From: Corallococcus soli | GTDB taxonomy: Bacteria; Myxococcota; Myxococcia; Myxococcales; Myxococcaceae | NCBI RefSeq assembly: GCF_014930455.1 | Contig: NZ_JAAIYO010000007.1 | Location: 310,001-374,000, forward strand | DNA length: 64,000 nucleotides | Reading direction: 5' to 3' | Part shown: in pieces, positions 2 to 33,443 of the stretch | Numbering within the stretch: position 1 is the first letter of the stretch | Layout: each line of letters begins with the position of its first letter | Position numbers and translations under genes: made by a program | Notes under the pieces: model-generated | The model's database searches: none | Seen by the model: only the letters and a program-made list of their open reading frames with translations | Told to the model about the DNA's origin: nothing

Positions 2-718
2 GGCGCGAAGCTGCTGGTGCGCGCGGACGGCAGCTTCCACGGCACCATCGGGGGCGGGCACCTGGAGCAGCTGGTCCTCCAGGACGCGCGCGGGTGCCTG
101 GAGCGGGGCGAGGCGCGCACGTTCCGCTATCCGCTGGGCGCGAAGCTGGGCCAGTGTTGTGGAGGGGTCGTGGACGTCTTCGTCGAGCCCGTCAACCACG
201 GGCCGCAGCTCTATCTCTTCGGCGCCGGCCACGTGGGCCAGGCCCTGTGCCGCATCCTCGAAGGCACCCCGTTCCGCGTCCACCTGGTGGACGAGCGCGC
301 CGAGTGGGTCCAGTCCCCCCAGGTGCCCGCGTCCGTCATCCGCCACGAGGAGCCCTGGGACGAGTTCGCCGCGCGCGCCACCTGGGATGCCCTGCGCACC
401 TATGTGGCGGTGATGACGCACCGCCACGACGTGGATCAGGACATCATCGCCTTCGCCATCCAGAAGCCCGCGCGCTACATCGGGCTCATTGGCAGTGACA
501 CGAAGTGGGCCCGCTTCCGGCAGCGGCTGGACGCGAAGGGCCTGCCCGCCCGGCAGGTGGGCCGCGTCCAGTGCCCCATGGGGCTGCCCACCGGGGGGAA
601 GTCGCCCCAGGAGGTGGCGGTCAGCATCGCGGCGGGGCTGCTCCAGCTCCACCACGGGCTGGCGCCGGAGGTGGGGGCTCAGCCATCGCCCGCGCCCCTG
701 CTATCCTCCGGGGAATGA
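2..718 (+). CDS. xdhC: XdhC-type molybdenum cofactor insertion factor (5' end outside window)
   Basis: The reading frame is open from the window edge, so the N-terminus is missing. The visible part has the XdhC/CoxI N-terminal pattern (GTIGGGHLE, then GQCCGGVVDVF) followed by the Rossmann-like C-terminal domain (LYLFGAGHVGQAL, YIGLIGSD). In this family the protein binds molybdopterin, promotes its sulfuration and inserts it into xanthine dehydrogenase. That role fits the next gene, whose ATG overlaps this stop in an ATGA tetranucleotide (715-718), a sign of translational coupling. The assignment is firm; only the start is unknown. Confidence 0.93.
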   Translation, partial: GAKLLVRADGSFHGTIGGGHLEQLVLQDARGCLERGEARTFRYPLGAKLGQCCGGVVDVFVEPVNHGPQLYLFGAGHVGQALCRILEGTPFRVHLVDERAEWVQSPQVPASVIRHEEPWDEFAARATWDALRTYVAVMTHRHDVDQDIIAFAIQKPARYIGLIGSDTKWARFRQRLDAKGLPARQVGRVQCPMGLPTGGKSPQEVAVSIAAGLLQLHHGLAPEVGAQPSPAPLLSSGE

Positions 719-3700
719 GCACCCCTTTCGAGTTCCGGCTCAATGGCCAGACCGTCCGGGTCGACAATGAGTCGCCCAACACCACGCTGCTGGACTTCCT
801 GCGCTCGCGCGGCCTGACGGGCACCAAGCAGGGCTGCGCCGAGGGAGACTGCGGCGCCTGCACCGTGGCGATGGTGGACCAGGACACCCGGGGCCAGAAG
901 AACCTGCGCGCCTTCAACAGCTGCATCGCGCTGGTGCCCATGGTGGCCGGCCGCGAGCTCGTCACCGTGGAGGGCGTGGGCCAGCGCGACGCGCCCCACC
1001 CCGTGCAGCAGGCCATGGTGAAGCACTACGGGTCGCAGTGCGGCTTCTGCACCCCGGGCTTCGTCGTCTCCATGGTGGAGGCGTACTGTCGCAAGGACGC
1101 GGGTTCGCCGGAGGCCGTGGCGGATCAGCTCTGCGGCAACCTCTGTCGCTGTACCGGCTACCGCCCCATCCGCGACGCGATGATGGACGCGCTCGCCGCC
1201 CGCGACGCGAAGGGCGCCGCGCCCACGCTGCCCGGCGTCTCGCTGGAAGGGCCGCCCGCCCCCACCCCGCCCCTGCGCTACGAGGCCCGGGACGGGCTGT
1301 TCCTGCGGCCCGGCGGCTTCGAGGACCTGCTCGCGCTGAGGGCCCTGCACCCGGAGGCGATGCTCGTGGCCGGCGCCACGGAGCTGGGCGTGGACATCAC
1401 CAAGAAGTCCCGCCGCTACCCCTTCCTCATCTCCACCGAGGGCGTGGCGTCGCTGCGCGCCATCCGCCGGGAAGCGGACGGCTGGTACGTGGGCGGCGCC
1501 GCGTCGCTGGTGGACGTGGAGGACGCGCTGGGCGCGGAGGTGCCGGAGGTGGCGAAGATGCTCAACGTCTTCGCCTCGCGGCAGATCCGCCACCGCGCCA
1601 CGCTGTCGGGCAACCTCGTCACGGCGTCGCCCATCGGCGACCTGGCGCCGGTGCTGCTCGCGCTGGACGCGAGGCTGGTGCTCGCCTCCGTGCGCGGGGA
1701 GCGGACGCTCGCGCTGTCGGAGTTCTTCCTCGCCTACCGCAAGACGGCGCTCCAGCCAGACGAGGTCGTCCGCTTCATCGTCATCCCGCATGCTCCCGCG
1801 AAGGACAGCGGCCTCCTGCGCCACTCGGACAGCTTCAAGGTGTCCAAGCGCCGCGAGCTGGACATCAGCATCGTCGCGGCGGGCTTCTGCATCGAAACGG
1901 ACGCGCTGGGCATCGTGCGCACCGCGAGGCTTGGTTACGGCGGCGTGGCGGCCACGCCCGTGCGCGCGCTCAAGACCGAGGCGCTGCTCGTGGGCCACCC
2001 GTGGAGCGCGGAGGTGGTGGCGCGCGTGCGCTCGACGCTGGCCGCGGAGTTCACCCCCATCAGCGACCTGCGCGGCAGCGCGGACTACCGGCGCGGGCTG
2101 GTGGTGTCGCTCTTCGAGAAGTTCGTCTCCGGCGAGCGCAGCCCCGTGCTGGATGAGCGGCCCCGCTTCCTCACCGGAGCGCCCTCCGCCACGGCGGACG
2201 CGGGCCGCGAGCTGCGGCACGAGAGCGCGCTGGGCCACGTGACGGGCGGCGCGCAGTACGTGGATGACCTGGCGCAGCGCCGGCCCATGCTGACGGTGTG
2301 GCCGGTGATGTCGCCCCACGCGCACGCGCGCATCCTCCGCCGCGACGCCAGCGCCGCGCTGAAGGTGCCCGGCGTGGTGCGGGTGCTGCTCGCGGAGGAC
2401 ATCCCGGGCATGAACGACACGGGGCCCATCCGCCACGACGAGCCGCTGCTCGCGAAGGACGACGTGCTCTTCCACGCGCAGCTGGTGGCGCTCGTCATCG
2501 GGGAGACGCCGGAGGCCTGCCGCGACGGGGCCCGCCAGGTGGTGGTGGACTACGAGCCCCTGCCCGCCGTGCTCACGCTGACCGAGGCCCGCGCGCAGGA
2601 CAGCTACCACACGGATCCGCACGTCATCCGCCGGGGCGACGTGGACAGCGCGCTCGCGTCCAGCCCCCACCGGCTGGGCGGTGAAATCGAGATGGGCGGC
2701 CAGGAGCACTTCTACCTGGAGACGCACGCCGCCTTCGCGGAGGCCGGCGAGGACGGCGACGTCACCGTGACGTCCTCCACCCAGCACCCGTCGGAGGTGC
2801 AGGCGGTCATCGCGCACGTGCTGCACGTGCCCCGGAGCCGCGTCGTGGTGAAGGCGCCCCGCATGGGCGGCGGCTTCGGCGGCAAGGAGACGCAGGGCAA
2901 CGCGCCCGCGGCGCTGGTGGCGCTGGCGGCGGTGCTCACGGGCCGGCCGGTGAAGTGGATGCTGGACCGGGACGTGGACATGGCCGTCACCGGCAAGCGC
3001 CACCCGTTCCACGCGGAGTGGGAGGTGGGCTTCGACGCCACGGGGCGGCTGCTCGCGCTGAGGGCGGACCTGGTGTCCAACGGCGGCTGGTCCCTGGACC
3101 TGTCCGAGTCCATCACCGACCGCGCCCTCTTCCACCTGGACAATGGCTACTACGTCCCGGCGGTGCGCTACTCCGGCCGGGTGGCGAAGACGCACCTGGT
3201 GTCCAACACCGCGTTCCGGGGCTTCGGCGGGCCGCAGGGCATGCTGGTGATGGAGGACATCCTGGGCCGCATCGCGCGCGTGCTGGGGCTGGCGCCGGAA
3301 GCCGTGCGGCAGCGCAACCTCTACGACGGCGTGGGAGAGACCAACACCACGCACTACGGTCAGGAGCTGGAGGACAACCGGCTGCCCCGGCTGTGGAACA
3401 ACCTGATGGAGTCCTCCGACTTCCAGCAGCGCCGCGCGCAGGTGGACGCCTTCAACGCGAAGAGCCCCCGCATCAAGCGCGGCCTGGCCATCACGCCGAT
3501 GAAGTTCGGCATCTCCTTCACCGCCACCTTCCTCAACCAGGCGGGCGCGCTGGTGCACGTGTACCGCGACGGCTCCGTGCTGCTGTCGCACGGCGGCACG
3601 GAGATGGGCCAGGGCCTGCACACCAAGATTCAAGGCGTGGCCATGCGCGAGCTGGGCCTGTCCGAGGACCGGGTGCGCGTGGCGCAGACGGCGACGGACA

Positions 3701-4548
3701 AGGTGCCCAACACGTCCGCGACGGCGGCCTCCAGCGGCTCGGACCTCAACGGCGCGGCGGTGCGCGAGGCGTGCATCACCCTGCGCGAGCGGCTGGCGCC
3801 GGTGGCCGCGAGGATGCTGGTGCAGCTGCACGGGCAGGCGGTGTCCCCGGACGCGCTGCTGTTCCGGGACGGGCGCATCGCGGCGGCGTCGCGGCCGGAG
3901 CTGGGCCTGCCCTTCGCGGACGTGGTGGAGGAGGCCTACCGCGAACGCGTGGGCATGTCCGTCACGGGCTACTACCGCACGCCGGGCATCGGCTACGACC
4001 GGGTGAAGGGCCGGGGAAAGCCCTTCCTCTACTTCGCCTACGGCGCGGCGGTGAGCGAGGTGGAGGTGGACGGCGACACGGGCATGAAGCGCGTGGTGCG
4101 CTCCGACCTGCTGGAGGACGTGGGCGACTCGCTCAACCCCGGCGTGGACCGGGGCCAGGTGGAGGGCGGCTTCGTGCAGGGCGTGGGCTGGCTCACCGGC
4201 GAGGAGCTGCGCTGGGATGGCAAGGGGCGGCTGCTCACGCACTCGGCCAGCACCTACGCGGTGCCCGCCTTCAGCGACGCGCCCATCGACCTGCGCGTGG
4301 CGTTCATGGAGCGGGCGGAGCAGCCGGGCGTCATCCACGGCAGCAAGGCCGTGGGCGAGCCGCCGCTGATGCTGGCCCTGTCCGTGCGGGAGGCGCTGCG
4401 CGACGCGGTGGCGGCGTTCGGTCAGCCGGGTGGCGACGTGGACCTGCCCTCGCCGGCCACGCACGAGGCGCTCTTCCTCTCCATCCAGAAGCGGCGCGCG
4501 CGGGCCTCCGACGTTCCGGTTCCGGACGAAGCGCGCGAGGTGGCGTAG
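715..4548 (+). CDS. xdh: Xanthine dehydrogenase, fused FeS/FAD/molybdopterin subunits
   Basis: A single 1,277-residue chain carries all cofactor domains that many bacteria split into XdhA and XdhB. Cys41, Cys46 and Cys49 form the plant-type 2Fe-2S site. Cys109, Cys112, Cys144 and Cys146 form the second cluster. An FAD domain follows at about residues 190-480, then the Moco domains. The Moco part reads very like mammalian XDH: GGGFGGKE with Glu725, FRGFGGPQ with Arg835, and the catalytic base Glu1215 in VGEPPLM; the first two match the substrate-positioning Glu802 and Arg880 of bovine XDH. It oxidises hypoxanthine and xanthine to urate in purine catabolism, probably in the cytoplasm. I chose ATG 715 because it overlaps the xdhC stop and begins a normal ferredoxin domain; the frame is open further upstream without family similarity. 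Confidence 0.95.
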   Translation: MSTPFEFRLNGQTVRVDNESPNTTLLDFLRSRGLTGTKQGCAEGDCGACTVAMVDQDTRGQKNLRAFNSCIALVPMVAGRELVTVEGVGQRDAPHPVQQAMVKHYGSQCGFCTPGFVVSMVEAYCRKDAGSPEAVADQLCGNLCRCTGYRPIRDAMMDALAARDAKGAAPTLPGVSLEGPPAPTPPLRYEARDGLFLRPGGFEDLLALRALHPEAMLVAGATELGVDITKKSRRYPFLISTEGVASLRAIRREADGWYVGGAASLVDVEDALGAEVPEVAKMLNVFASRQIRHRATLSGNLVTASPIGDLAPVLLALDARLVLASVRGERTLALSEFFLAYRKTALQPDEVVRFIVIPHAPAKDSGLLRHSDSFKVSKRRELDISIVAAGFCIETDALGIVRTARLGYGGVAATPVRALKTEALLVGHPWSAEVVARVRSTLAAEFTPISDLRGSADYRRGLVVSLFEKFVSGERSPVLDERPRFLTGAPSATADAGRELRHESALGHVTGGAQYVDDLAQRRPMLTVWPVMSPHAHARILRRDASAALKVPGVVRVLLAEDIPGMNDTGPIRHDEPLLAKDDVLFHAQLVALVIGETPEACRDGARQVVVDYEPLPAVLTLTEARAQDSYHTDPHVIRRGDVDSALASSPHRLGGEIEMGGQEHFYLETHAAFAEAGEDGDVTVTSSTQHPSEVQAVIAHVLHVPRSRVVVKAPRMGGGFGGKETQGNAPAALVALAAVLTGRPVKWMLDRDVDMAVTGKRHPFHAEWEVGFDATGRLLALRADLVSNGGWSLDLSESITDRALFHLDNGYYVPAVRYSGRVAKTHLVSNTAFRGFGGPQGMLVMEDILGRIARVLGLAPEAVRQRNLYDGVGETNTTHYGQELEDNRLPRLWNNLMESSDFQQRRAQVDAFNAKSPRIKRGLAITPMKFGISFTATFLNQAGALVHVYRDGSVLLSHGGTEMGQGLHTKIQGVAMRELGLSEDRVRVAQTATDKVPNTSATAASSGSDLNGAAVREACITLRERLAPVAARMLVQLHGQAVSPDALLFRDGRIAAASRPELGLPFADVVEEAYRERVGMSVTGYYRTPGIGYDRVKGRGKPFLYFAYGAAVSEVEVDGDTGMKRVVRSDLLEDVGDSLNPGVDRGQVEGGFVQGVGWLTGEELRWDGKGRLLTHSASTYAVPAFSDAPIDLRVAFMERAEQPGVIHGSKAVGEPPLMLALSVREALRDAVAAFGQPGGDVDLPSPATHEALFLSIQKRRARASDVPVPDEAREVA

Positions 4549-19700: not shown

Positions 19701-22218
19701 GCCCGCCATGGTGCTCCAGACGGCCTTCCAGGCCCTGCTGCACCGCTACACCGGACAGCAGGACTTCACGCTGGGCGTGGTGAGCGCGGGCCGGGGGCGC
19801 GCGGAGCTGGCGGGCGTCACCGGCTACTTCGTCAACCCGCTGGTGGTGCGCACGCGGCCTTCCCCCTCCATGTCCTTCACGGACTACCTGGCCCAGACGC
19901 GCCAGACGATGCTGGGCGCGCTGGAGCACCAGGACTATCCGTTCAGCGCGCTGGTGGACCGGTTGCAGCCGGTGCGCGACCAGAGCCGCTCGCCGTTGTT
20001 CCAGGTGATGTTCGTCTACCAGCGCGCGGCCCGGCTGGATGAGCGCGGCCTCACGCCCTTCGCCCTGGACGTCCCGGGCGCGCGCGCCACCGTCGCGGGC
20101 CTGCCCATCGAATCGCTGGTGCTGTCGCACGGCGGCGCGCAGTTCGACCTCACGCTCACCCTGGGCGAGGTGGAGGGCGAGCTGGCCGCCTCCTTCGAAT
20201 ACAACACCGACCTCTTCGACGCCGGCACCATCGAGCGCATGGGCGGGCACCTGCGCACGCTGCTGGCCGGCATCGCCGCGCAGCCCCGCCGCGCCCTCTC
20301 CCGCCTGCCGCTGCTTTCCCCGGAGGAGCAGCACCAGCTGCTCGAAGGCTGTCGCGGCCCGCGCGTGCCCCTCACCGACGCGGACATGCTGCCCGCGCTG
20401 TTCGCGGCGCAGGTGGCGCGCACGCCGGACCACGTCGCGGTTTTCTTCCAGGACACCCGGCTCACCTACCGTGAGCTGGAGGAGCGCTCGGGCCAGCTCG
20501 CCGGGTGGCTGCGCGCGTTGGGGGTGAAACCGGGAGACGTCGTCGGCCTCTGCCTGGAGCGCTCCGTGGAGACGCTGGTGTCCGTGCTGGCCGTGATGGC
20601 CACGGGCGCGTGCTACGTCCCCATCGACCCCGCCTACCCCGCCGAGCGCGCGGCCTTCATCCTGTCCGACACGCGGGCCCCGGTGCTCCTCACCCAGTCC
20701 TGGCTCCAGCGCACGCTGCCCACCGGCGCCTCCGCGCGCATGCTGTGCGTGGACCTGCCGCTGGACGGCGCGCTGGCCCCGGAGCTTCCCGCGCCGGTGA
20801 GCGCGGACGACCTGGCGTGCCTCGTCTACACCTCCGGCTCCACCGGCCAGCCCAAGGGCGTGATGCTGGAGCACGGGGGCCTGGCGAACCTGGTGCGCTC
20901 GTTCGTGGAGTCGTACGCGCCGTCGGCGGAGGACCGGATGCTGCCGCTCACGTCGGTGGCGTCCGCCAGCTTCGTGGGTGAGATCCTCCCGCTGCTGTGC
21001 ACGGGCGGCGCGCTGGTGCTGCCCACCGAGGAGGAGATCCTCGACCAGGAGAAGCTCTTCCAGCTCATCACCCGCCACACCGTCACGCTGGTGAGCACCG
21101 TGCCCGCGGTCATCGCGGGGCTCAACGCGCGCCTGGAGGAGCTGCCGCCGCTGCGGCTGGTGCTCTCCGGCGGCGAGGCGCTGGTCGCCAGCGACGTGGA
21201 GAAGCTGCTCACCACGACGCCGGTGGTGAACGGCTACGGCCTGACGGAGACGACCGTCTGCACGACCTACCACCGCATGACGGTGGCGGACCTCCAGGGC
21301 CACGCGTGGGTGCCCATTGGCCGGCCCATCATCAACACGGACGTGTACGTGCTGGACGCGGAGCGCAACCTGCTGCCCGTGGGCGCGGCCGGCGAGCTGT
21401 ACGTGGGCGGTCGCGGCCTGGCGCGTGGCTACTGGCGGCGCCCGGAGCTGACCTCCGAACGCTTCGTCACCCACCCGTTCCAGCCGGGCGAGCGGCTCTA
21501 CCGCACGGGCGACCGCGCGCGCTGGCTGCCGGACGGAGTGCTGACGTTCCTGTCCCGCGCGGACGAGCAGGTGAAGCTGCGCGGCTTCCGCATTGAATTG
21601 GGCGAGGTGGAGGCCGCGCTGCGCCGCCACCCCGCCGTGCGCGACGCGTTCCTGATGGCGCGTGAAGATGCCCCGGGCGACAAGCGGCTGGTCGCATACC
21701 TGGTGCTGTCGGAGCCCGCGCCCACGCACACGGACCTGGGCACCTTCCTGGCCCAGGCGCTGCCGCCGTACATGCTGCCGTCCGCGTACGTGCCGCTGGC
21801 CGCGCTGCCCCTGTCCCCCCACGGCAAGGTGGATCCGAAGGCGCTGCCCGCGCCGGAAGGGGCCCGGCTTGAGTCCGCCGTGGCCTACGCTCCGCCCCAG
21901 AGCGCGGTGGAGCGCGGCGTGGCCGCCATCTGGCAGTCGGTGCTGAAGGTGGACCGCGTGGGTTTGCACGACAACTTCTTCGAGCTGGGCGGCAACTCGC
22001 TGCTCATCGCGCAGGCACACCGGCGGATGCGCGAGGAGCTGGGCGCGGACCTCTCGTTGGTGGACATGTTCAAGTTCACCACCGTGAGCGCGCTGGCCCA
22101 GCAGTTGGCGAACAAGGGCGAGGATGCTGGCGCGGCCTCCCAGAAGATCAAGGACGAGGCGGAGCGTCGCAGGGCCGCCCAGGTCCGGCGGCAGCAGACG
22201 CGCGGCCGTGGCAGGTAG
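16795..22218 (+). CDS. FAAL-ACP-C-A-PCP lipoinitiating NRPS
   Basis: A 1,807-residue assembly-line protein. Residues about 15-590 are a fatty acyl-AMP ligase: YTSGSTSSPKGVVLTHGNLL from residue 184, WLPPYHDMGLIGG, and GRNHYPQDIE. An ACP follows with its phosphopantetheine Ser667 (YGVDSL). A condensation domain begins near residue 729 and has HHVVTD at 856-861. An adenylation domain spans about 1190-1690 (YTSGSTGQPKG at 1345, GYGLTETT, HGKVDPKAL with the A10 Lys). A PCP ends the chain with Ser1735 (LGGNSL). It should activate a free fatty acid as AMP ester, load it on the ACP and condense it with one building block. By hand alignment to GrsA the A-domain pocket reads A1391, S1392, G1395, then S, V, S, G, V, C: the usual Asp for an alpha-amino group is missing. 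First gene of the operon, 36 bp before the PKS. Confidence 0.92.
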   Translation: MRSGAPSGASPAPDPSFSTLVHLLRVRARDQADLRGFTFLQDGETDEEHLTYAALDRKARAIAAVLQARGAQGERALLLYPPGLDYIAGFFGCLYAGVIAVPIYPPDPLRLARTLPRLLSISQDAQATLVLTTDLIHGMGGLLFEQAPELRELHWLATDTLDAEVAEGWRDPGVTADTRGFLQYTSGSTSSPKGVVLTHGNLLHNSKLIHACFGHSPQSQGVIWLPPYHDMGLIGGILQPLYGGFPVTLFSPVDFLKRPLRWLEAISRFKATTSGGPNFAFDLCVRKSTPEERAKLDLSHWDLAFNGAEPLMPDTLRRFAEAFGPQGFRSEAIYPCYGLAEGTLIASGGDKRQLPVQRTVDADALKEHRVVATGPTNPAARTLVGAGRNLTDQRLIIAHPETGRPLASGQVGEIRVAGPSIAQGYWGRPEQTDVTFHQPLTGTDDATPFLRTGDLGFLDDGELFVTGRLKDLIIIRGRNHYPQDIERTVESSHPAIRPGCTAAFSIELEDEERLIIVTEVDRRAVETAGVDLESLAQGIRQAVAAGHDLQARGVVLLGPGAIPKTSSGKIQRFAARAEYVTDTLDALHASVLAAPASVTPELTGATSAAQREPDARRRNPRFAGEQSPSTRRAQVTEFLREQAAQVLRLPTALVDVEKPLHAYGVDSLMAVDFKSAVDAGLGLDLPLSDVLQGVPLTQLAETVSRLLSAPRLEPSAGPVTAYPSTEDAPLSGGQQALWFMHQLAPDSAAYHVPVAVRVRSAVDAKALRAAFEALVSRHPALRTTFVMAATGPVQRVHAGMPPDFAVTDATGWSDAQVLEHLSAEARRPFDLEQGPLLRVRLVSRAADDHALLIAMHHVVTDFWSLAVMAEELDALYPALRLGQQPTLAVPARTIADHARWQAELLAGPRGQALEKYWREQLSGALPVLDLATDRPRPPVQTFNGRVHTTRLDAGITAAVKSLARDHGATPAMVLQTAFQALLHRYTGQQDFTLGVVSAGRGRAELAGVTGYFVNPLVVRTRPSPSMSFTDYLAQTRQTMLGALEHQDYPFSALVDRLQPVRDQSRSPLFQVMFVYQRAARLDERGLTPFALDVPGARATVAGLPIESLVLSHGGAQFDLTLTLGEVEGELAASFEYNTDLFDAGTIERMGGHLRTLLAGIAAQPRRALSRLPLLSPEEQHQLLEGCRGPRVPLTDADMLPALFAAQVARTPDHVAVFFQDTRLTYRELEERSGQLAGWLRALGVKPGDVVGLCLERSVETLVSVLAVMATGACYVPIDPAYPAERAAFILSDTRAPVLLTQSWLQRTLPTGASARMLCVDLPLDGALAPELPAPVSADDLACLVYTSGSTGQPKGVMLEHGGLANLVRSFVESYAPSAEDRMLPLTSVASASFVGEILPLLCTGGALVLPTEEEILDQEKLFQLITRHTVTLVSTVPAVIAGLNARLEELPPLRLVLSGGEALVASDVEKLLTTTPVVNGYGLTETTVCTTYHRMTVADLQGHAWVPIGRPIINTDVYVLDAERNLLPVGAAGELYVGGRGLARGYWRRPELTSERFVTHPFQPGERLYRTGDRARWLPDGVLTFLSRADEQVKLRGFRIELGEVEAALRRHPAVRDAFLMAREDAPGDKRLVAYLVLSEPAPTHTDLGTFLAQALPPYMLPSAYVPLAALPLSPHGKVDPKALPAPEGARLESAVAYAPPQSAVERGVAAIWQSVLKVDRVGLHDNFFELGGNSLLIAQAHRRMREELGADLSLVDMFKFTTVSALAQQLANKGEDAGAASQKIKDEAERRRAAQVRRQQTRGRGR

Positions 22219-22254: not shown

Positions 22255-25200
22255 ATGAGCACTGACACCCCCACCGAAGTGGAAGGCATCGCGGTCATCG
22301 GCATGGGCGGACGCCTGCCCGGCGCGAAGACCCTCGCCGCGTTCTGGAAGAACCTCACGGGCGGCGTGGACAGCATCACCTTCTTCACCGACGAGGAGCT
22401 CATCGCGGAAGGGACGGACCCGGCCCTGGTGCGCGCCCCCCACTACGTGAAGGCGCGCGGCACGCTGGGCGACACGGACCAGTTCGACGCGGCCTTCTTC
22501 GGCATGAACCCGCGCGAGGCCGCGCTGATGGATCCCCAGCACCGCCTGTTCCTGGAGTGTGCGTGGGAGGCGATGGAGCACTCGGGCTACAGCCCGGAGC
22601 GGCAGCCCGGCCGCGTGGGCGTGTTCGGCGGCATGAGCATGAACACGTACCTGCTCTCCAACCTGTACTCGCACCTGGCGCACGTCGCGTCGGTGGAGAG
22701 CCTCCAGGCGTCCATCGGCAACGACAAGGACAGCCTGACGACGGAGGTCGCGTACCGGATGGACCTGACGGGCCCCGCCGTCACGGTGCAGTCCTCGTCC
22801 TCCACGTCGCTCACCTGCATCCACTACGCCTGCCAGAGCCTGCTGTCGTTCGAGTGCGACATGGCCCTGGCCGGAGGCGTGTCCATCCACTTCCCGGAGA
22901 AGGCGGGCTCCCTCTACCACGAGGGTGGCACCACGGCGCCGGACGGCCGCTGCCACACCTTCGACGCGGAGGCCCAGGGGTTTGTCGCCGGCCACGGCGC
23001 GGCGGTGGTGACGCTCAAGCGCCTGTCGGACGCGCTCAAGGACGGGGACACCGTCTACGCCGTCGTGCGCGGCTCGGCGGTGAACAACGACGGCTCGCGC
23101 AAGGTCAGCTACATGGCCCCCGCCGTCGCGGGGCAGGCGGAGGTCATCGCGCTGGCGCAGGCGGTGGCGAACGTGGAACCGGACACCCTGGGCTACGTGG
23201 AGGCCCACGGCACCGCGACGAAGGTGGGGGACCCCATCGAGGTGGCGGCGCTCACGCAGGCGTTCCGCCAGGGCACGGACAAAAAGAACTTCTGCGCGCT
23301 GGGGTCGGTGAAGAGCAACATCGGGCACCTGGACTCGGCGGCGGGCGCGGTGGGCTTCATCAAGGCGGTGCTGTCGCTGCACCACAAGAAGCTGGTCCCC
23401 AGCCTCCACTTCAAGACGCCCAACCCGGCGTGCGACTTCCCCAACAGCCCGTTCTACGTGAACACGGAGCTGCGCGACTTCCCGAAGGGCGCCACGCCGC
23501 GACGCGCGGGCGTCACGTCGCTGGGCATGGGCGGCACCAACGCGCACGTCATCCTGGAGGAAGCGCCGGAGCCGCCCGCCACCGACACGCCCCGGCGCCC
23601 CGCGCAGTTGGTGCTGCTGTCGGCGCGCACGGAGGCGTCGCTGGAGGTGGCCACGGACCGGCTGGCCGCGCACCTGCGCGAGCACCCGGGGACGGAGCTG
23701 GCGGACGTGGCGCACACGCTGCAACTGGGCCGCAAGCGCTTCGGCAAGCGGCGCGCGGTGGTGGCGCGCACCCTGGCGGAGCTGATCACTGCGCTGGAGG
23801 AGCGCACGCCGGGCCGCGTGTTCAGCGGCGCCGCGGAGAACGCCGGCCGTCCGGTGATGTTCATGTTCTCCGGGCAGGGCTCGCAGTACGTGGACATGGG
23901 AAGGGACCTGTATGAGCAGGAGCCCGCCTTCCGCGCCCAGGTGGACACCTGCGCGGAGAAGCTCAAGCCGCACCTGGGCCTGGACCTGCGCACCGTGCTG
24001 TACCCGCCCGAGGCGTCGCGCGAGCTGGCCTCGGAGCGCCTCAAGCAGACGGGCCTCGCGCAGCCGGCGCTGTTCGTCATCGAGTACGCGCTCGCGAAGC
24101 TGTGGGCGTCATGGGGCGTGACGCCGCACGCGATGGTGGGCCACAGCATCGGTGAGTTCGTGGCCGCGTGCCTCGCGGGCGTCTTCACCCTGGACGACGC
24201 GCTGGCGCTGGTCGCCGCGCGAGGCCGGCTCATGCAGTCGCTGCCCGCAGGCTCGATGCTCGCGGTGCCGCTGCTCGTGGCGCAAGTGACGCCGCTGCTG
24301 CCGGAGGGCCTGTCCGTGGCGGCGGTGAACAGCCCCACCACCTGCGTCGTCGCGGGCCCCACCGCGCAGGTGGACGCGTTCGAGCAGCAGCTCCAGTCAC
24401 AGGGCCTCCACGGCTCGCGGCTGCACACGTCGCACGCGTTCCACTCCGCGATGATGGACCCCATCCTGGACGCCTTCCGCGAGGCGGTGCGCAAGGTGGC
24501 GCGGCAGGCACCGAAGAAGCCCTACCTGTCCAACGTCACCGGCACCTGGGTGACCTCCGAAGAGGCCACGAGCCCCGAGTACTGGGTGAAGCACCTGCGC
24601 GGCGCGGTGCGCTTCGCGGACGGCGTGGCGGAGCTGCTGAAGGAGTCGGACGCCATCCTGCTGGAGGTCGGCCCCGGCAACACGCTGGCCACCCTGGCGC
24701 GGCAGCATCCGGACAAGGGCGCGCGGCACGCGATCCTCCACTCGCTGCGCCATCCGAAGGAGCAGCACGCGGACCTGGACACCGTGCTGGGCACGCTGGG
24801 CCGGCTGTGGCTGGAGGGCGTGGAGGCGGATTGGGATGCCTTCCGGGGCGAGGAGCGCCGCCGCCGCGTCGCGCTGCCCACGGCCCCCTTCGAGCGTCAG
24901 CGCCACTGGGTGGAGCCGCGCAAGGCGACCACCACCTCCGACGGCGAGCGCGCCGAGGCGGTGTCCGCGGATCAGAAGCAGCCCGTGGCCCGCTGGTTCT
25001 ACCTGCCGTCCTGGCAGCGCTCGCTGCCGCTTCCGAAGAGCGCGTGGAGCGAGAAGAAGTCCTCCTGGTGGCTGTTCCTCCCCGACGAGGCATCCGGTGC
25101 GACCGGCGAAAGCCTGGGTGCGCTGCTCGCGCGGAGACTGGAAGAGGCCGGACAGGACGTGCTGCGCATCACCCCGGGCTCCGTCACCGCGAAGCACGCC

Positions 25201-26916
25201 GAGCACCACTGGACGCTGGCGCTGGGCGGCGAGGGCGCGCTGCTGGAGACGCTCGCCGCGCCAGACCACGTCCTGCACCTGGGGACGCTGGGCGTGGGCG
25301 AGCCACGGGGCGAGGCGGACTTCGAGTCCGCGCTGGGCAAGGGATTCCTGGGGTTGATGGGGATCGCGCGGGCCCTGGGCCCTCAGCCCGGCGCGCGGCC
25401 GGTGTCTCTGGTCGCCGTCACGGACCGCATGCAGGCGCTGGGCGAGGAGGCGCCGAGCCCGGAGCTGGCCACGGTGCTGGGCCCGGTGCGCGTGATTCCG
25501 CAGGAGTACGGCCACCTGTCCGCCAAGGCCGTGGACCTGCGCCTGCCGACGCCGGGGAACTGGCAGGAGGCGGCGCTGGTGGAGGCCCTGCTGTCGGAGG
25601 CCGCCACGCCATCCCGGCAGGAGGACGTCATCGCCTACCGTGGCGGCGCGCGCTGGGTGCGGACATACGAGCCCCTCCCGGCGGATGCGCCTCGCGCCGC
25701 GCAGGTTCCGCTGCGTGACGGGGGCGTGTACCTGATCATCGGCGGCTTCGGCACCCTGGGCTTCATGCATGCGCGGTCGCTGGCGAAGCGGGTGAAGAAG
25801 GCGAAGCTGGTGCTCGCGGGCCGCACTGCCCTGCCGGAGCGCGCGCAGTGGGACGGGCACCTCGCGGCGAATCCCGAGGACGACGCCGTGGCCCGCCGCA
25901 TCCTCCAGGTGCTCTCCCTGGAGGCGCTGGGCGCGGAGGTCCTCACGGTCTGCCTGGACGCGGCCAACAAGGTCCAGGTGCAGACAGCGGTGGAGGCGGC
26001 CGTGTCGCGCTTCGGCGCGCTGCATGGCGTGGTGTTCGCGGCGGGTGACGTGGGCCCGGCCCTCTTCCGGGCCATCCCGGACACCCGGCCGGAGGACGTG
26101 CGCGACACCTTCCACGGCCGCGTGCGCGGGCTGTACGCGCTGGAGGAGGCGCTGCGCGGGCGTCCGCTGGACTTCTGCCTGCTGTCGTCGTCGCTGGCGG
26201 CGGTGCTCGGGGGCCTGGGGCTGGCGTCGTACGCGGCGGCCACGTCCTTCATGGACGCCTTCGCCACGAAGCAGTCCCAGATGACGCCGGTGCCGTGGAT
26301 GAGCGTGGGCTGGGACGCGTGGAAGTTCGAGTCCCGCGCCGGAGGCACGCAGAGCCCGTTCGGCGCGCTGGCCATCACCCTCTCCGAGGGCGAGGACGCG
26401 TTCGAGCGGCTCTTCCAGTTGGGCCCCGTGCCCCATGTCGCCGTGTCCACGAGCGACCTGCGCGCCCGTGCGAGCAAGTGGTCTCAGCCGGCGTCCCCGC
26501 GAGGGCCAGCGGCGAAGCAGGACGTGGGGGCCATTCCAGGCACCACGCCCCGGCCCACGCTCCAGAACGCGTACGTGCCGCCTCGCGACCCGCTGGAGGA
26601 GCGGCTGGCCCACCTTTGGGAGACGACGCTCGGCATCGCGCAGGTGGGCGTGCACGACAACTTCTTCGAGCTGGGAGGCAACTCGCTGGTGGGCGTGAAG
26701 CTGATCGCGCTCGTGCGTGAACAGTTCGGCGTCGCGCTGCCGGCCGTCACGCTCTACGAGGGCCCCACCGTGGGCGCGCTGGCGAAGCTGCTCCAGGCCG
26801 CCAGCGATACCGGGGATGCCGCCCCCGAAGACACCGAAGCGCTCAGCCGTGGTGAGCGCCGCCGCGCCCGCCGCGCGAACCGCCGGGGTGACGACACCCC
26901 CGACGAGGAGCCGTAG
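22255..26916 (+). CDS. Type I PKS module KS-AT-KR-ACP with Ser in the KS active site
   Basis: A 1,553-residue single module. The ketosynthase (residues 8-435) keeps both catalytic His (His318 in EAHGTAT, His358 in NIGHLDS) but has Ser182 where the nucleophilic Cys should be (QSSSSTSL instead of DTACSTSL). The acyltransferase has Ser631 (GHSIGE) and HAFHS at 727-731, the malonyl-CoA signature. The ketoreductase has GGFGTLG at 1163-1169, Ser1313 and Tyr1326, but Arg1289 and Thr1330 replace the usual Lys and Asn. The ACP Ser is 1477. There is no DH or ER. The start ATG 22255 has GAAGGA 7 bases upstream; a TTG at 22240 is also in frame. The C-terminus is a short Arg/Asp-rich tail that may dock to the next protein. 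The next PKS begins 26 bp downstream. Confidence 0.92.
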   Translation: MSTDTPTEVEGIAVIGMGGRLPGAKTLAAFWKNLTGGVDSITFFTDEELIAEGTDPALVRAPHYVKARGTLGDTDQFDAAFFGMNPREAALMDPQHRLFLECAWEAMEHSGYSPERQPGRVGVFGGMSMNTYLLSNLYSHLAHVASVESLQASIGNDKDSLTTEVAYRMDLTGPAVTVQSSSSTSLTCIHYACQSLLSFECDMALAGGVSIHFPEKAGSLYHEGGTTAPDGRCHTFDAEAQGFVAGHGAAVVTLKRLSDALKDGDTVYAVVRGSAVNNDGSRKVSYMAPAVAGQAEVIALAQAVANVEPDTLGYVEAHGTATKVGDPIEVAALTQAFRQGTDKKNFCALGSVKSNIGHLDSAAGAVGFIKAVLSLHHKKLVPSLHFKTPNPACDFPNSPFYVNTELRDFPKGATPRRAGVTSLGMGGTNAHVILEEAPEPPATDTPRRPAQLVLLSARTEASLEVATDRLAAHLREHPGTELADVAHTLQLGRKRFGKRRAVVARTLAELITALEERTPGRVFSGAAENAGRPVMFMFSGQGSQYVDMGRDLYEQEPAFRAQVDTCAEKLKPHLGLDLRTVLYPPEASRELASERLKQTGLAQPALFVIEYALAKLWASWGVTPHAMVGHSIGEFVAACLAGVFTLDDALALVAARGRLMQSLPAGSMLAVPLLVAQVTPLLPEGLSVAAVNSPTTCVVAGPTAQVDAFEQQLQSQGLHGSRLHTSHAFHSAMMDPILDAFREAVRKVARQAPKKPYLSNVTGTWVTSEEATSPEYWVKHLRGAVRFADGVAELLKESDAILLEVGPGNTLATLARQHPDKGARHAILHSLRHPKEQHADLDTVLGTLGRLWLEGVEADWDAFRGEERRRRVALPTAPFERQRHWVEPRKATTTSDGERAEAVSADQKQPVARWFYLPSWQRSLPLPKSAWSEKKSSWWLFLPDEASGATGESLGALLARRLEEAGQDVLRITPGSVTAKHAEHHWTLALGGEGALLETLAAPDHVLHLGTLGVGEPRGEADFESALGKGFLGLMGIARALGPQPGARPVSLVAVTDRMQALGEEAPSPELATVLGPVRVIPQEYGHLSAKAVDLRLPTPGNWQEAALVEALLSEAATPSRQEDVIAYRGGARWVRTYEPLPADAPRAAQVPLRDGGVYLIIGGFGTLGFMHARSLAKRVKKAKLVLAGRTALPERAQWDGHLAANPEDDAVARRILQVLSLEALGAEVLTVCLDAANKVQVQTAVEAAVSRFGALHGVVFAAGDVGPALFRAIPDTRPEDVRDTFHGRVRGLYALEEALRGRPLDFCLLSSSLAAVLGGLGLASYAAATSFMDAFATKQSQMTPVPWMSVGWDAWKFESRAGGTQSPFGALAITLSEGEDAFERLFQLGPVPHVAVSTSDLRARASKWSQPASPRGPAAKQDVGAIPGTTPRPTLQNAYVPPRDPLEERLAHLWETTLGIAQVGVHDNFFELGGNSLVGVKLIALVREQFGVALPAVTLYEGPTVGALAKLLQAASDTGDAAPEDTEALSRGERRRARRANRRGDDTPDEEP

Positions 26917-29900: not shown

Positions 29901-31976
29901 CTGCTGGAGTCACTGAAGCGGCAGGGCCGCTCGTTCGCGAACGTGGTGCACCTGTGGAGTTTGTCGTGCGAGCCCCTGGCACTGGGCGCAGCGCTGGACC
30001 TGGGCTTCCACAGCCAGCGCTTCCTGGCGCGCGCGCTGGGCGAGGTGGGCCTTCTGGAGCCCCTGACGTGGTCCGTGGTGACGAGCCGCGCGGCGCGCGT
30101 GGAACGGGCCGACATGCGATTGCCGGAGCAGGCATTGCTGGTGGGCCCGACGCGCGTGCTGCCCCAGGAATACCCGCACCTATCCTGCCGCTTCGTGGAC
30201 GTGGTTCCCGGGGATGCTGGCGCGGTGGCTGAGCGGCTGGCGGCGGAGCTGCGCGCGCGGTCGGGTGACGCGGTGGTGGCGCTCCGTGGCCGTCAGCGCT
30301 GGGTGCGGACCTACGAACCCGTGCGCCTGGAGGCTGGCGTCCCGGGGGGGCTTCGCGACGGCGACGTGTACCTCATCACCGACGGCCTCACCGGCATCGG
30401 CCATGCGCTCGCGTCCGAGCTGGCGACGGTGCACCACGCGAAGCTGGCGCTGGTGGAGACAGCGGACCTGCCCGGCCGGGACCAGTGGGCCGCGTGGGTG
30501 GAGCGGCACGGCGTGGCGGATGCCGTCACCCGTCGCATCCAGCGTGCGCAGGCTCTGGAGCGCACGGGCGTGGAGCTGCTGGTGCTGTCCGCGAACCTCA
30601 CCGACGTGGAGGCCATGCGCGGCGTGGTGGACACGACGATGGCGCGCTTCGGTCGCATCGACGGCGTCATCCACGCAGCGGGCGGCATGCAGGACGCCAC
30701 GCCGAGCACCCTCGCGGAGACCGGGCCGGCCGAGTGCGAAGGACACTTCCGCTCCCAGGTGCACGGCGTGCGGGTATTGCAGCAGGTGCTGCCCGTGGAA
30801 GGGCCCGCCTTCTGCCTCCTCGTCGCCTCACTGTCGTCGGTGCTGGGCGGCCTGGGCCAGGTGGCGCGAGCCTCCGCCAGCGCCTTCATGGATGCCTTCG
30901 CGAAAGGACACAGCGAGACATCCGCCTATCCTTGGCTCAGCGTGGACATGGACGCGTGGCAGCTCGCGGACGCGCCCACCGTGTCGGAGTCGAGCCCCGT
31001 GCTGTCGCGGTTCGCCATGCAGCCCGCGGAAGGCATTGAAGCGTTGCGTCGCGCGCTGTCGCAGGGTGAGGGAGGGCAGCTCGTCGTCTCCACCGGAGAT
31101 CTGGCCGCGCGCCTCCGCCAGGGGCTGAGCACCCCGAGCGTGAGCGCGTCCCCGAGCAACAAGGAGCCCGCGCATGGCAAGCACGCACGGCCCCCCCTCC
31201 TCACGCCCTACGTGGCGCCGGACACGGAGCTGGAGAAGACCGTCGCGGGCATCTGGGAGCAGGTCATGGGCATCCAGGGCATCGGCCTCCACGACAACTT
31301 CTTCGAGCTGGGCGGGCACTCGATGCTGGCCTCGCAGTTGCGCAACCACCTCCACACGGTGCTCCAGGTGGACCTGTCCCTGCGCGGCTTGTTCGAGACG
31401 CCCACCGTGGCCGGTGTCGCAAGAGGCGTGGAGCAGGAGCGCAGCACGCGCGCGGCCTCCACGGAGAAGCCCATCGCGGAGCGCCTGCGCACCGCCTTCC
31501 CCACCGAGCGCCCCGCCTTGATGGCGGACTACCTGCGCCACCACATCGCCGAGGCGCTGCGCATCCCCCCAGCGCGACTGCCCGCGAACGGAAGCCTCGC
31601 GGACCACGACCTGCACGCACTGGGCGCGAAGCTGGAACAAGCCCTGCGGCAGGACTTCAAGCTCCAGCTCTCCGCGCGCGAAGTGCAGGCGCACCCGTCC
31701 ATCCCGGAGCTGTCGCAGCACCTGCTGGTGGAGCTGGACCGGCTGACGGCTCCACAGCGCATCGTGGAGGGCCGGCCGCCGTTGGACTCCGCGAACGAGT
31801 CTTCCCGCCCACAGGACACCGCCACCGCGAAGAAGCAGGTGACCGCCGAGGAGGCGGAGAAGTTGCTGGAGAGCATGGAGCACCTGTCGGACGAACAGGT
31901 GGCGGAGCTGCTCGCGGTGCTGGAGGCCACGGACGCAGACACGGGGAGTAGCAGTAACGACGAGGAAGCCGCCTGA
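26943..31976 (+). CDS. Type I PKS module KS-AT-KR0-ACP plus degenerate ACP and docking helix
   Basis: A 1,677-residue module. The ketosynthase is intact (Cys175 in SACSTSL). The acyltransferase has Ser628 and HAFHS at 724-728, predicting malonyl-CoA. The ketoreductase is dead: the NADPH loop reads TDGLTGIG (1146-1153) instead of TGGxGxxG, and the catalytic Tyr is Arg1309. An ACP follows with Ser1460 (LGGHSM). Residues about 1525-1605 look like a second ACP, but DHDLHAL has Ala1559 in place of the phosphopantetheine Ser. The chain ends in a helical, acidic tail (EEAEKLLESMEHLSDEQVAE), a typical C-terminal docking element, although no further assembly-line gene follows in this window. No thioesterase or reductase domain is present. 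Last PKS of the operon, 60 bp before the transporter. Confidence 0.92.
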   Translation: MSADPTIDAQAIAIVGMAGRFPGAPDLDTFWKNLREGVESIRPVSDAEPSLRTDARHVKVSAALEGMELFDAGFFGFTPREAELMDPQHRVFLECAWEALEKAGHTPEGFDGAIGVFAGASTNTYLVFNLVPHLDRFGGMDPVQVDVSNGGDFLATRVAYKLNLRGPSYSITSACSTSLVATHAACQSLLDEECDIALAGGVSVNVKHPEGYAFVPGGIVSPDGHCRAFDAKAEGTVFGSGVGVVVLKRLADAIEDGDHIHAVIKGSAVNNDGALKVGFTAPSVEGQASVIREALGAAGVPPESIGYLEAHGTGTKMGDPIEVRALNKAFKFRSASARANPPRIPVGSLKSNIGHLANAAGVSSLIKAVLTLEHRQIPPSLHVTEVNPEIPFAGGPFFVNTKLTDWQANPQHPRRAGVSSFGVGGTNAHVVLEEAPTLPPSGASRAMQVLVLSAKSDAALDAATRNLAAHLKAHPAQPLADAAFTLQTGRQAMGRRRVLVCRGRDDALAALDVEGSPRLWTQAPDVQERPVVFLFPGQGSQYVGMARDLYASEPTFKKHLDACAEKLTPHLGLDLRTVLFPEAAKEEAAAQALSGTELTQPALFVVEYALAKLWMAWGVKPSAMLGHSIGEFVAACLAGVFSLDDALTLVAARGKLMQGVPAGAMLSVREEESALMPLLTGGLSVAAVNAPGFTVVAGPTDAVDALQAKLEARGVEVSRLHTSHAFHSAMMEPVLAPFTERVRQVKLNAPTLPFLSNVTGTWIDAAQATDPGYWATHLRQAVRFSAGLQEVSRKWPQAAFLEVGPGTVLTTLAKQHPGVEGRVLISSTRHPREQASDLPVLLGALGRLWLGGVSVDWKGFAAHEQRRRVPLPTYPFQRERYWIEPKPLGTLTAGARTDAPASLAKRTDVADWFYAPSWKLAPLPRAKAGEEAGAGWLVFADDTGVADALAPKLGGTVLRVSAGARFEQRPDGTYTVDPRRREDYGSLLESLKRQGRSFANVVHLWSLSCEPLALGAALDLGFHSQRFLARALGEVGLLEPLTWSVVTSRAARVERADMRLPEQALLVGPTRVLPQEYPHLSCRFVDVVPGDAGAVAERLAAELRARSGDAVVALRGRQRWVRTYEPVRLEAGVPGGLRDGDVYLITDGLTGIGHALASELATVHHAKLALVETADLPGRDQWAAWVERHGVADAVTRRIQRAQALERTGVELLVLSANLTDVEAMRGVVDTTMARFGRIDGVIHAAGGMQDATPSTLAETGPAECEGHFRSQVHGVRVLQQVLPVEGPAFCLLVASLSSVLGGLGQVARASASAFMDAFAKGHSETSAYPWLSVDMDAWQLADAPTVSESSPVLSRFAMQPAEGIEALRRALSQGEGGQLVVSTGDLAARLRQGLSTPSVSASPSNKEPAHGKHARPPLLTPYVAPDTELEKTVAGIWEQVMGIQGIGLHDNFFELGGHSMLASQLRNHLHTVLQVDLSLRGLFETPTVAGVARGVEQERSTRAASTEKPIAERLRTAFPTERPALMADYLRHHIAEALRIPPARLPANGSLADHDLHALGAKLEQALRQDFKLQLSAREVQAHPSIPELSQHLLVELDRLTAPQRIVEGRPPLDSANESSRPQDTATAKKQVTAEEAEKLLESMEHLSDEQVAELLAVLEATDADTGSSSNDEEAA

Positions 31977-32036
31977 CCCGGCTGTCGGCGCACCCCGCCG
32001 TAGTACCGTGCGCGGGTCCCTGAACACTCCTGCCCG

Positions 32037-33443
32037 ATGAGACGTGGAATGAGCCTGTCCCAACGCCTGAGCATCACGCAGCCCATGCGGGTCTTCTGGA
32101 TCACCTGGTTCGGTCAGCTCATCTCGCTCATCGGCTCCGGGCTCACCGCGTTCGGCGTGGGGGCCAAGGTGTTCATGGACACGCGGTCCACCACGCAGTA
32201 CGCGCTGCTGTCCTTCTTCGCGTTCGCCCCCATGGTGCTGCTGTCCCCGTTCGCGGGCGCGCTGGTGGACCGCTGGGACCGCCGCCGCGCGATGCTGCTG
32301 GCGGACCTGGGCAACGGCTTCAGCACCCTGATCATCTTCGGCATGGTGCTCGCCAGCAACCGGGGCATGTTCACGCTGGAGCCCTGGCACTTCTACCTGC
32401 CCGTGGCCCTGGGGGCGTGCTTCGGCGCCTTCCGCTGGCCGGCCTTCTTCGCCACGGTGACGATGCTCGTGCCCAAGCAGCACCTGGGCCGCGCCAACGC
32501 GATGGCGGAGGTGGCCAACGGCGCCAGTCAGATTTTGTCCCCCATCGTCGCGGGCGCGCTCATTGAAGCCGTGGGCCTCATCGGCGTGCTGACGGTGGAC
32601 GTCATCAGCTTCTCCTTCGCCGTCCTCACGCTGCTCATCGTCCGCTTCCCCCGTCCCACCGTGTCCGCGGAAGGGCAGCGCGGCAAGGGGTCGCTGCTGA
32701 AGGAGATGCTGCAGGGCTGGACCTTCATCCGCGCACGCCCGGGCCTGCTGGGCCTGCTGGGCTTCACCGCCATGGCCTCGCTGTGCGTGTCCCTGGTGAT
32801 GCTGCTCATCACCCCGCTGGTGCTGGGGTTCACGGACATCTCCACGCTGGGCATCATCGCGTCGGTGGCGGGCTCGGGCGCGCTGGTGGGCGCCATCACC
32901 ATGGGCGTGTGGGGCGGCCCGAAGAACGCGCTCGTCGGCGTGCTCGGCTTCAGCCTGCTGTCGGGCGTGGTGCTGTTCATGGCCGCGCCCGTGCCCAGCG
33001 TTCCGCTGGTGGCCACCGCCGCCGCGCTCTACCTGTTCACCATGCCGCCGGTGATGGCGGGCAGTCAGGCCTTCTGGCAGCGCAAGATTCCGGCGGACCT
33101 CCAGGGTCGCGCGTCCGCGGTGAAGCGCATGGTGATCCTGTGCACTCCGCCCATCGCGGCCCTGCTGGCCGGGCCGCTCGCGGACGGCCTCTTCGAGCCG
33201 GCCATGGCACCCGGTGGCGCGCTCGCCAGCACCATGGGGCGCCTGCTGGGCGTGGGCCCGGGGCGCGGCATCGCGGTCATCTTCATCGTCCTGGGGCTGC
33301 TGACCATCGCCAACGTCGTGGTGGCCTGGCTGAACCCGCGCGTGCGCTACCTGGACCGGGAGGTTCCGGACGCCCTTCCCGACCTGCCCGCCAGCCCGCC
33401 GCAGGACGTGGCCCCGGACGCGCCGACCGCACTCGCGAAATAA
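32037..33443 (+). CDS. MFS exporter, EntS/macrolide-efflux type
   Basis: A 468-residue major facilitator with about 12 hydrophobic spans. It has the cytoplasmic motif-A loop between spans 2 and 3 (GALVDRWDRRRAML) and the PADLQGRASA motif typical of the EntS/MFS_3 drug-efflux branch. Located 60 bp after the last PKS and on the same strand, it most likely exports the product of the FAAL-NRPS-PKS line or protects the producer. ATG 32037 is used; ATG 32049 is an equally sensible start four codons in. Confidence 0.88.
   Translation: MRRGMSLSQRLSITQPMRVFWITWFGQLISLIGSGLTAFGVGAKVFMDTRSTTQYALLSFFAFAPMVLLSPFAGALVDRWDRRRAMLLADLGNGFSTLIIFGMVLASNRGMFTLEPWHFYLPVALGACFGAFRWPAFFATVTMLVPKQHLGRANAMAEVANGASQILSPIVAGALIEAVGLIGVLTVDVISFSFAVLTLLIVRFPRPTVSAEGQRGKGSLLKEMLQGWTFIRARPGLLGLLGFTAMASLCVSLVMLLITPLVLGFTDISTLGIIASVAGSGALVGAITMGVWGGPKNALVGVLGFSLLSGVVLFMAAPVPSVPLVATAAALYLFTMPPVMAGSQAFWQRKIPADLQGRASAVKRMVILCTPPIAALLAGPLADGLFEPAMAPGGALASTMGRLLGVGPGRGIAVIFIVLGLLTIANVVVAWLNPRVRYLDREVPDALPDLPASPPQDVAPDAPTALAK

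Follow-up and report, generated by a model that had tools for sequence, protein, structure and literature searches.

Ketosynthase (KS) domains that have lost the catalytic Cys can be mistaken for dead or loading domains, and the locus described here raises the question of what such a domain does when it stands behind an NRPS gene. It lies in a 64,000-nucleotide stretch of Corallococcus soli DNA, which we call the window. Here, gene 2 (P0001; 22255-26916, + strand, start ATG at 22255) encodes a PKS module of the order KS(Ser)-AT-KR-T. The KS (22285-23574, + strand), a ketoacyl-synt domain of type I, contains both catalytic His and the Lys. It reads QSSSSTSL, the translation of positions 22789-22812, and the TCC codon at 22798-22800 (+ strand) places Ser182, counted from the ATG, where the catalytic Cys would stand. 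An earlier note on this DNA had recognized the substitution and had the motif right, except that its interval, 22792-22812, starts one codon late. The note was also correct in describing a non-canonical KS in an odd position behind an NRPS gene, which has the order FAAL-ACP-C-A-T, and in stating that both catalytic His are retained; we found His318 and His358, together with Lys353. The Gln of the motif adds no further oddity, since VQTACSTSL occurs in many Cys-KS domains of related hybrid lines. The rest of the module comprises an AT (23857-24750, + strand) with the motifs GHSIGEF and HAFH, which we take to be of the malonyl type, a KR (25723-26325, + strand) in which the catalytic Lys and Asn are replaced by Arg and Thr while Ser and Tyr are intact, and a carrier with an intact GGNSL motif. 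None of the 25 NCBIfam models listed for gene 2 (the best 25 of 33) reached its own cut-off, and Rfam gave no match within 11000-36500 of the window.

The substitution is well conserved. A whole-protein search of 96 family genomes gave 27 orthologues, including that of the window, at 67-100% identity over the matched protein. In this set, in which one protein is truncated by a contig end (G080) and another is without a stretch of the KS (G026), Ser stands at the Cys position in all 27 orthologous KS domains, and none of the 27 has lost the His/Lys/His set or the AT motifs. Among 195 Myxococcota genomes, the same 27 separate at 75-100% identity over the KS; the next match lies at 61%, and the three that were read of the four next-ranked KS domains (L196, L197 and L198) all carry Cys. 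The gene 2 KS of G026 (C452; L024, L079) is about 50 residues shorter with an open frame, which may be a deletion or an assembly fault. Median dN/dS values were obtained for 12 domains from 12 of the 16 genomes of genus g1 (Corallococcus). The Ser-KS was the lowest at 0.100, followed by the Cys-KS domains of gene 3 (0.126, 11 genomes) and gene 5 (0.136, nine genomes), and the remaining nine domains lay at 0.20-0.32. Since all 27 orthologous KS domains carry the same Ser, a sequencing error is excluded, and a pseudogene is ruled out by this conservation together with the low dN/dS. The window lineage itself is somewhat less constrained (Ser-KS, 0.170; FAAL, 0.305 versus 0.204), which fits its shortened cluster.

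The three roles that the earlier note had put forward, a malonyl decarboxylase, a pass-through domain or a second starter, are poor fits, as discussed below. The closest solved relative, which the note had overlooked, is ClbI from colibactin biosynthesis. With the KS-AT region as the query, the best PDB chains were 8xjy and 8xju (859 bits), followed by the two-KS chain 7zma (714) and CurL (630). In the structural comparison, the titles of 8xju and 8xjy name colibactin ClbI, in the apo form and as a KS-AT crosslinked with ACP. With the KS alone, 7zma had the highest score (619, summed over its two KS domains) and 8xjy followed with 537. The window Ser-KS shares 53% identity with ClbI, whose Ser178 aligns with Ser182. 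Compared with the best single-KS Cys entry, ClbI led by 18 bits for the window domain (537 versus 518) and by 60 for the Ser-KS from Bacillota (538 versus 478); in a control with the Cys-KS of gene 5 from G018 it fell 63 bits below (438 versus 501). In the same KS-only search, the loading domains compared were KSQ structures, and these reached about 300-315 bits against the 537 of ClbI. At the 17 marker positions that distinguish 14 Ser-KS from 33 Cys-KS rows, ClbI agrees by eye with the Ser clade at nine (11, 140, 144, 150, 152, 182, 227, 243 and 425) and differs at eight. An AlphaFold model of the Ser-KS (mean pLDDT 76, residues 143-158 below 50) also placed ClbI first in a fold comparison (Z 53.6, rmsd 2.9, 407 residues aligned), but the next structures scored 53.0 and 52.7; this is effectively a tie, and therefore the fold is not decisive. 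In a quick tree of 52 KS rows built without the catalytic columns, the Ser-KS domains, all of them from non-colibactin lines, form one clade (14 rows, SH-aLRT 99), with a single change between Cys and Ser. The gene 2 KS is placed there among those of NRPS-PKS hybrids. The primary study of ClbH and ClbI is reportedly that of Zha et al. in 2017. In ClbI, Ser178 replaces the conserved Cys and the S178A mutation is described as abolishing activity; the enzyme is described as cyclizing the ClbH-bound SAM-acyl chain to 1-aminocyclopropane-carboxyl (ACC), with loss of methylthioadenosine (PMC10491745). We noticed no report of a ClbI-like KS in myxobacteria in the literature searched, which included few subscription papers.

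The likeness to the colibactin pathway extends to the neighbouring gene. Gene 1 (P0002; 16795-22218, + strand), a putative N-fatty-acyl-SAM synthetase, has the order FAAL-ACP-C-A-T, with Pfam matches to AMP-binding (two), Condensation and PP-binding (two). Its A domain (20401-21828, + strand; Pfam stretches at residues 1203-1547 and 1604-1678) carries SASFVGE (20962-20982, + strand) where the A4 motif is normally FDxxVWE; the region as a whole reads LTSVASASFVGEILP, and an FD motif stands there in the ordinary A domains compared. Alignment with FD-type domains, by BLAST as well as by MAFFT, puts Ala at the Asp235 position. In ClbH A2, Asp235 is likewise described as replaced by Ala (PMC5490422). 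A search with the A core gave the PDB chain 8xjz_C at the top, with 196 bits for its second A domain and 94 for its first, ahead of the best single-domain chain, 1amu (171 bits). This chain is a peptide synthetase of 1634 residues, which we infer to be ClbH because of its A1-C-A2-T layout and because the same entry contains the ClbI chain of 8xjy. Eight of the nine readable positions of the A-code, in GrsA numbering, are identical by eye between the gene 1 A domain and the second A domain of 8xjz_C. With the whole A domain as the query, a linear gramicidin synthase (summed bits over two A domains) ranked above 8xjz_C, and fold searches with a model of the domain returned ordinary A domains, 8xjz being absent among the 50 matches listed. 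The A core of gene 4 from G018, used as a control, preferred Ser-type domains of the teixobactin and fuscachelin lines (282-292 bits). These comparisons point to SAM as the probable substrate of the gene 1 A domain.

The Ser-KS and the SASFVGE A domain also occur together. An alignment scan for the Ser-KS across 84,980 species (one genome each), of which the best 80 matches were kept and which may miss a Ser-KS as distant as ClbI, yielded 78 loci, 16 with Ser and 62 with Cys. The Ser loci belong to 13 Myxococcota, two Chloroflexota and one Bacillota assembly. One Ser locus and ten Cys loci have no upstream A domain; one locus (L103) is cut off directly before the KS. Among these 78 best-scoring loci, SASFVGE lies upstream in 15 of the 15 Ser loci that have an upstream A domain and in none of the 49 Cys loci whose A match spans the motif; an upstream A domain is present in 52 Cys loci altogether, and in the remaining three (L127, L140 and L165) the match does not reach the motif. 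The motif appears 15 times among the 137 A-domain matches longer than 200 residues, each time in a Ser locus. Within Myxococcota, the gene 1 A core was found at 76-100% identity in 27 of 195 genomes, the same 27 that have the Ser-KS, and the remaining A cores among the matches listed did not exceed 48%. One Bacillota and one Chloroflexota assembly also carry the pair. The counts show a tightly conserved pair at the sequence level and not many independent events: neighbouring genes are inherited together and the Ser-KS is one clade, so the 15 of 15 are not 15 separate occurrences. As a separate observation, near-identical KS domains occur in bins labelled Actinomycetota and Calditrichota (L134 and L158; end branches 0.011 and 0.019), perhaps through a mis-binned contig or a recent transfer.

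Taken together, we consider it likely that the Ser-KS is a ClbI-type cyclopropanase within a PKS module, and that it forms with gene 1 a lipid-primed ACC-forming pair of the ClbH/ClbI type. This pair probably sits in a prodrug pathway activated by deacylation. The FAAL of gene 1 would load an activated fatty acid onto its own ACP, the A domain would activate SAM, and the C domain would couple them, so that the T domain carries N-fatty-acyl-SAM. This chain would next pass to the Ser-KS of gene 2, where Ser182, acting as a base or a nucleophile with His318 and His358, would promote ring closure with loss of methylthioadenosine, leaving an N-acyl-ACC thioester. The same KS would probably go on to condense the ACC chain with malonate on its own carrier. 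In the full clusters the line would continue, and a penicillin amidase could later cleave off the fatty acid in the manner of prodrug schemes. We infer SAM as the substrate, ring closure, elongation and deacylation from sequence.

Elongation in addition to ring closure is suggested by modules outside Myxococcota. Both Chloroflexota Ser-KS modules have the AT motifs and the Lys-Ser-Tyr-Asn set of the KR, and all four catalytic KR residues are also present in the module from Bacillota. A reductase makes sense if a β-keto thioester is formed in the same module, and we therefore favour a Ser-KS that both closes the ring and condenses. In the colibactin line, ClbC and ClbI have each been proposed to add one malonyl unit (PMC5490422). 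Two points count against elongation: the reduced condensing activity described for KSS domains (PMC12843615), and the dead AT of the Bacillota module. In the Myxococcota rows that were read, the catalytic Asn of the gene 2 KR is replaced by Thr or Met and its usual Lys is missing (the window has Arg there); in the Corallococcus type, the gene 3 KR has no Tyr. As the KRs of genes 2 and 3 thus look damaged, ketones may remain in the chain.

The same evidence bears on the strongest of the alternatives, which we nevertheless regard as improbable: that the domain is a plain elongating KS with Ser as an oxyester nucleophile, without ring chemistry, and that the A domain loads an unusual acid other than SAM. 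The retained AT and carrier motifs and His/Lys/His set, as well as the complete KRs in Chloroflexota and Bacillota, agree with this reading, and the priming KS DpsC offers a Ser nucleophile in a ketosynthase fold that is described as self-acylating and as transferring to ACP (PMC12664062). However, the pairing with a ClbH-A2-like A domain would then be a coincidence, and the closest solved Ser-KS is a cyclopropanase. DpsC itself was rejected as a model, since it is FabH-like with a Ser-His-Asp triad, whereas the gene 2 domain is of type I with His, Lys and His.

The order of the genes argues against a loading role. In each of the 27 clusters, the gene directly before that of the Ser-KS encodes FAAL-ACP-C-A-T. 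In full Corallococcus clusters the order is FAAL-ACP-C-A-T, KS(Ser)-AT-KR-T and KS-AT-KR-T-ST (genes 1-3), followed by C-A-T, KS-AT-KR-T, an MFS exporter and a penicillin amidase. A later PKS gene with a terminal sulfotransferase domain is found in 24 of the 27 clusters; that domain is absent from the window and from G030, and the contig of G080 stops in gene 2. Examples of such genes (L040:44-3943 and L051:1790-7831) are followed by C-A-T or NRPS genes with no thioesterase next to them, and in Corallococcus the KR before the sulfotransferase is the one without Tyr. Penicillin amidase (PF01804) occurs in 13 of the 27 fetched regions, namely 11 of 16 in genus g1 and both of genus g5. It is missing from the cluster of the window and from G030, three g1 stretches (G017, G019 and G021) stop before its position, and in the other nine fetched regions, some of which continue as NRPS and some of which end with the contig, it was not found. 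Two other penicillin amidases of the window genome share only 25-27% identity with the cluster type over partial length. The Chloroflexota locus L105 runs FAAL-ACP-C-A-T, KS(Ser)-AT-KR-T, penicillin amidase, C-T and A-T, and its amidase shares 48% identity with the one from G018. L104, from Bacillota, shares the first two genes, but the AT encoded in its Ser-KS gene is dead: the active-site Ser and a long segment are gone. With a dead cis-AT and complete KR residues, this gene (L104:9983-14440) may depend on a trans-acting AT.

The window carries a shortened version of the cluster. Gene 3 (P0003; 26943-31976, + strand) encodes a Cys-KS, an AT, a KR without Tyr, a T domain and a short tail, and lacks the sulfotransferase of its relatives. 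According to blastn against G023, there is a join at 31824-31827 at the site of the sulfotransferase domain, with the frame kept, and another at 31969-31988 at the site of genes 4 (C-A-T) and 5 (KS-AT-KR-T) of the relatives. The MFS exporter is retained (32037-33443, + strand; Pfam PF07690), at 79-87% identity to the cluster MFS of the other g1 genomes that possess one, and a third loss, that of the penicillin amidase, lies near 33407-33428 in comparison with G023. Genes 1-3 and the MFS gene remain open in this comparison. We considered whether the gene 3 tail derives from gene 5; instead, it is the gene's own tail after the in-frame loss of the sulfotransferase. In G030, which matches Corallococcus terminator (L091), gene 2 is fused to the tail of gene 3, and the Ser-KS is the sole ketosynthase found in the fetched 38 kb. 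An intact Ser-KS kept with no other KS argues against a mere acetyl loader.

Such a loader, a KSS that only decarboxylates malonyl to acetyl so that a second chain starts on gene 2 or gene 3, is in our judgement less probable still than plain elongation. There is precedent for it in polyene pathways: KSS-AT-ACP modules, with Cys replaced by Ser in a KS that has an AT and a carrier, are described for nystatin and amphotericin, and for natamycin a KS with the same substitution lies behind an inactive ligase domain (PMC12843615). However, those modules start the line and decarboxylate only, and here the lipid-priming NRPS gene precedes the KS in every cluster, and its FAAL, C and A motifs are present both in the window and in the loci of two further phyla. 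A loader at this point would leave gene 1 without an outlet. The placement of the KS among NRPS-PKS hybrid domains also speaks against it, as do the low scores of the KSQ structures. Pass-through, in which the chain would move to the carrier unextended, is very unlikely. The loss of Cys, the damaged appearance of the gene 2 and gene 3 KRs in Corallococcus and the dead AT of the Bacillota module would suit it; however, the AT motifs are conserved throughout the orthologues, and a pass-through domain need not keep the His/Lys/His set, yet this set is retained in all of them and the domain has the lowest dN/dS of those compared. Just as slight, in our estimate, is the chance that SAM is used but that the Ser-KS eliminates or forms another ring (for example, an azetidine or a vinylglycine unit). 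The limited identity to ClbI and the disagreement at nearly half of the marker positions leave room for this, but the substrate nitrogen should be acylated in a FAAL-primed line, and the sole studied relative makes ACC. Two known lines were discarded on layout: the coralinone-type pyrazinone line, described as A-T-C-A-T-KS-AT-ACP-TE (PMC10979478), does not match, and the corramycin cluster differs in its second module.

The resemblance to corramycin and vioprolide, both from myxobacteria, is confined to a FAAL start and a proposed late removal of the fatty acid; their lines are given as FAAL-ACP-C-HAD-T with glycerate, and the description consulted mentions no Ser-KS (PMC10099666). The cyclopropanase reading instead places the locus beside colibactin. 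As in ClbI and ClbH A2 of Escherichia coli, where ClbI has the order KS-AT-T, a KS with Ser at the aligned Cys position follows an NRPS A domain with Ala in place of Asp235, and ClbI and the putative ClbH chain give the best PDB matches, with the KS-AT region and the A core as queries. Several features are different. The SAM-type A domain sits here in a FAAL-ACP-C-A-T first module, whereas ClbH is a mid-line A1-C-A2-T protein; the Ser-KS module here bears a KR; and the hosts are Myxococcota, Chloroflexota and Bacillota rather than E. coli. The likely deacylase here is a penicillin amidase (PF01804) and not ClbP, which is a different type of peptidase. By sequence, the pair thus belongs with ClbH-A2/ClbI, but its context is new: FAAL-primed, KR-bearing, amidase-linked and spread over three phyla.

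A wider proposal is offered more tentatively. Across Myxococcota, Chloroflexota and Bacillota, one lineage may place SAM after a fatty acid and convert it to ACC with a ring-closing, elongating Ser-KS, so that an amidase releases a spiro-cyclopropane electrophile; this could be a second family of colibactin-like prodrugs outside the enterobacteria. With damaged KRs, the chain could be an N-acyl-ACC-diketide. Deacylation by the amidase would free the amine, which would close onto the ketone to give a spiro-cyclopropane electrophile like that of colibactin, and the strain of the window would retain the shortened core of such a pathway. In the literature consulted, a ketosynthase that turns carrier-bound SAM into a cyclopropane is described only for colibactin. 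If the assignment is correct, the domains described here would provide new enzymes with which to study the mechanism of ring formation by a Ser-KS and its possible role in elongation, which the KR-bearing versions suggest. A SASFVGE A domain beside a Ser-KS would then serve as a signature by which further pathways of this kind could be found. The family would also point towards natural products of soil bacteria that are new and may react with DNA.

Two further observations were made around the cluster. In the KS of gene 5 (L040:7187-11797 and orthologues), the Corallococcus rows read HAT for HGT after the first catalytic His, and the rows from Archangium and genus g5 retain HGT. Upstream in the window, positions 505-4548 encode a large molybdopterin-dependent dehydrogenase of the xanthine/aldehyde oxidase type, which is probably unrelated to the cluster.
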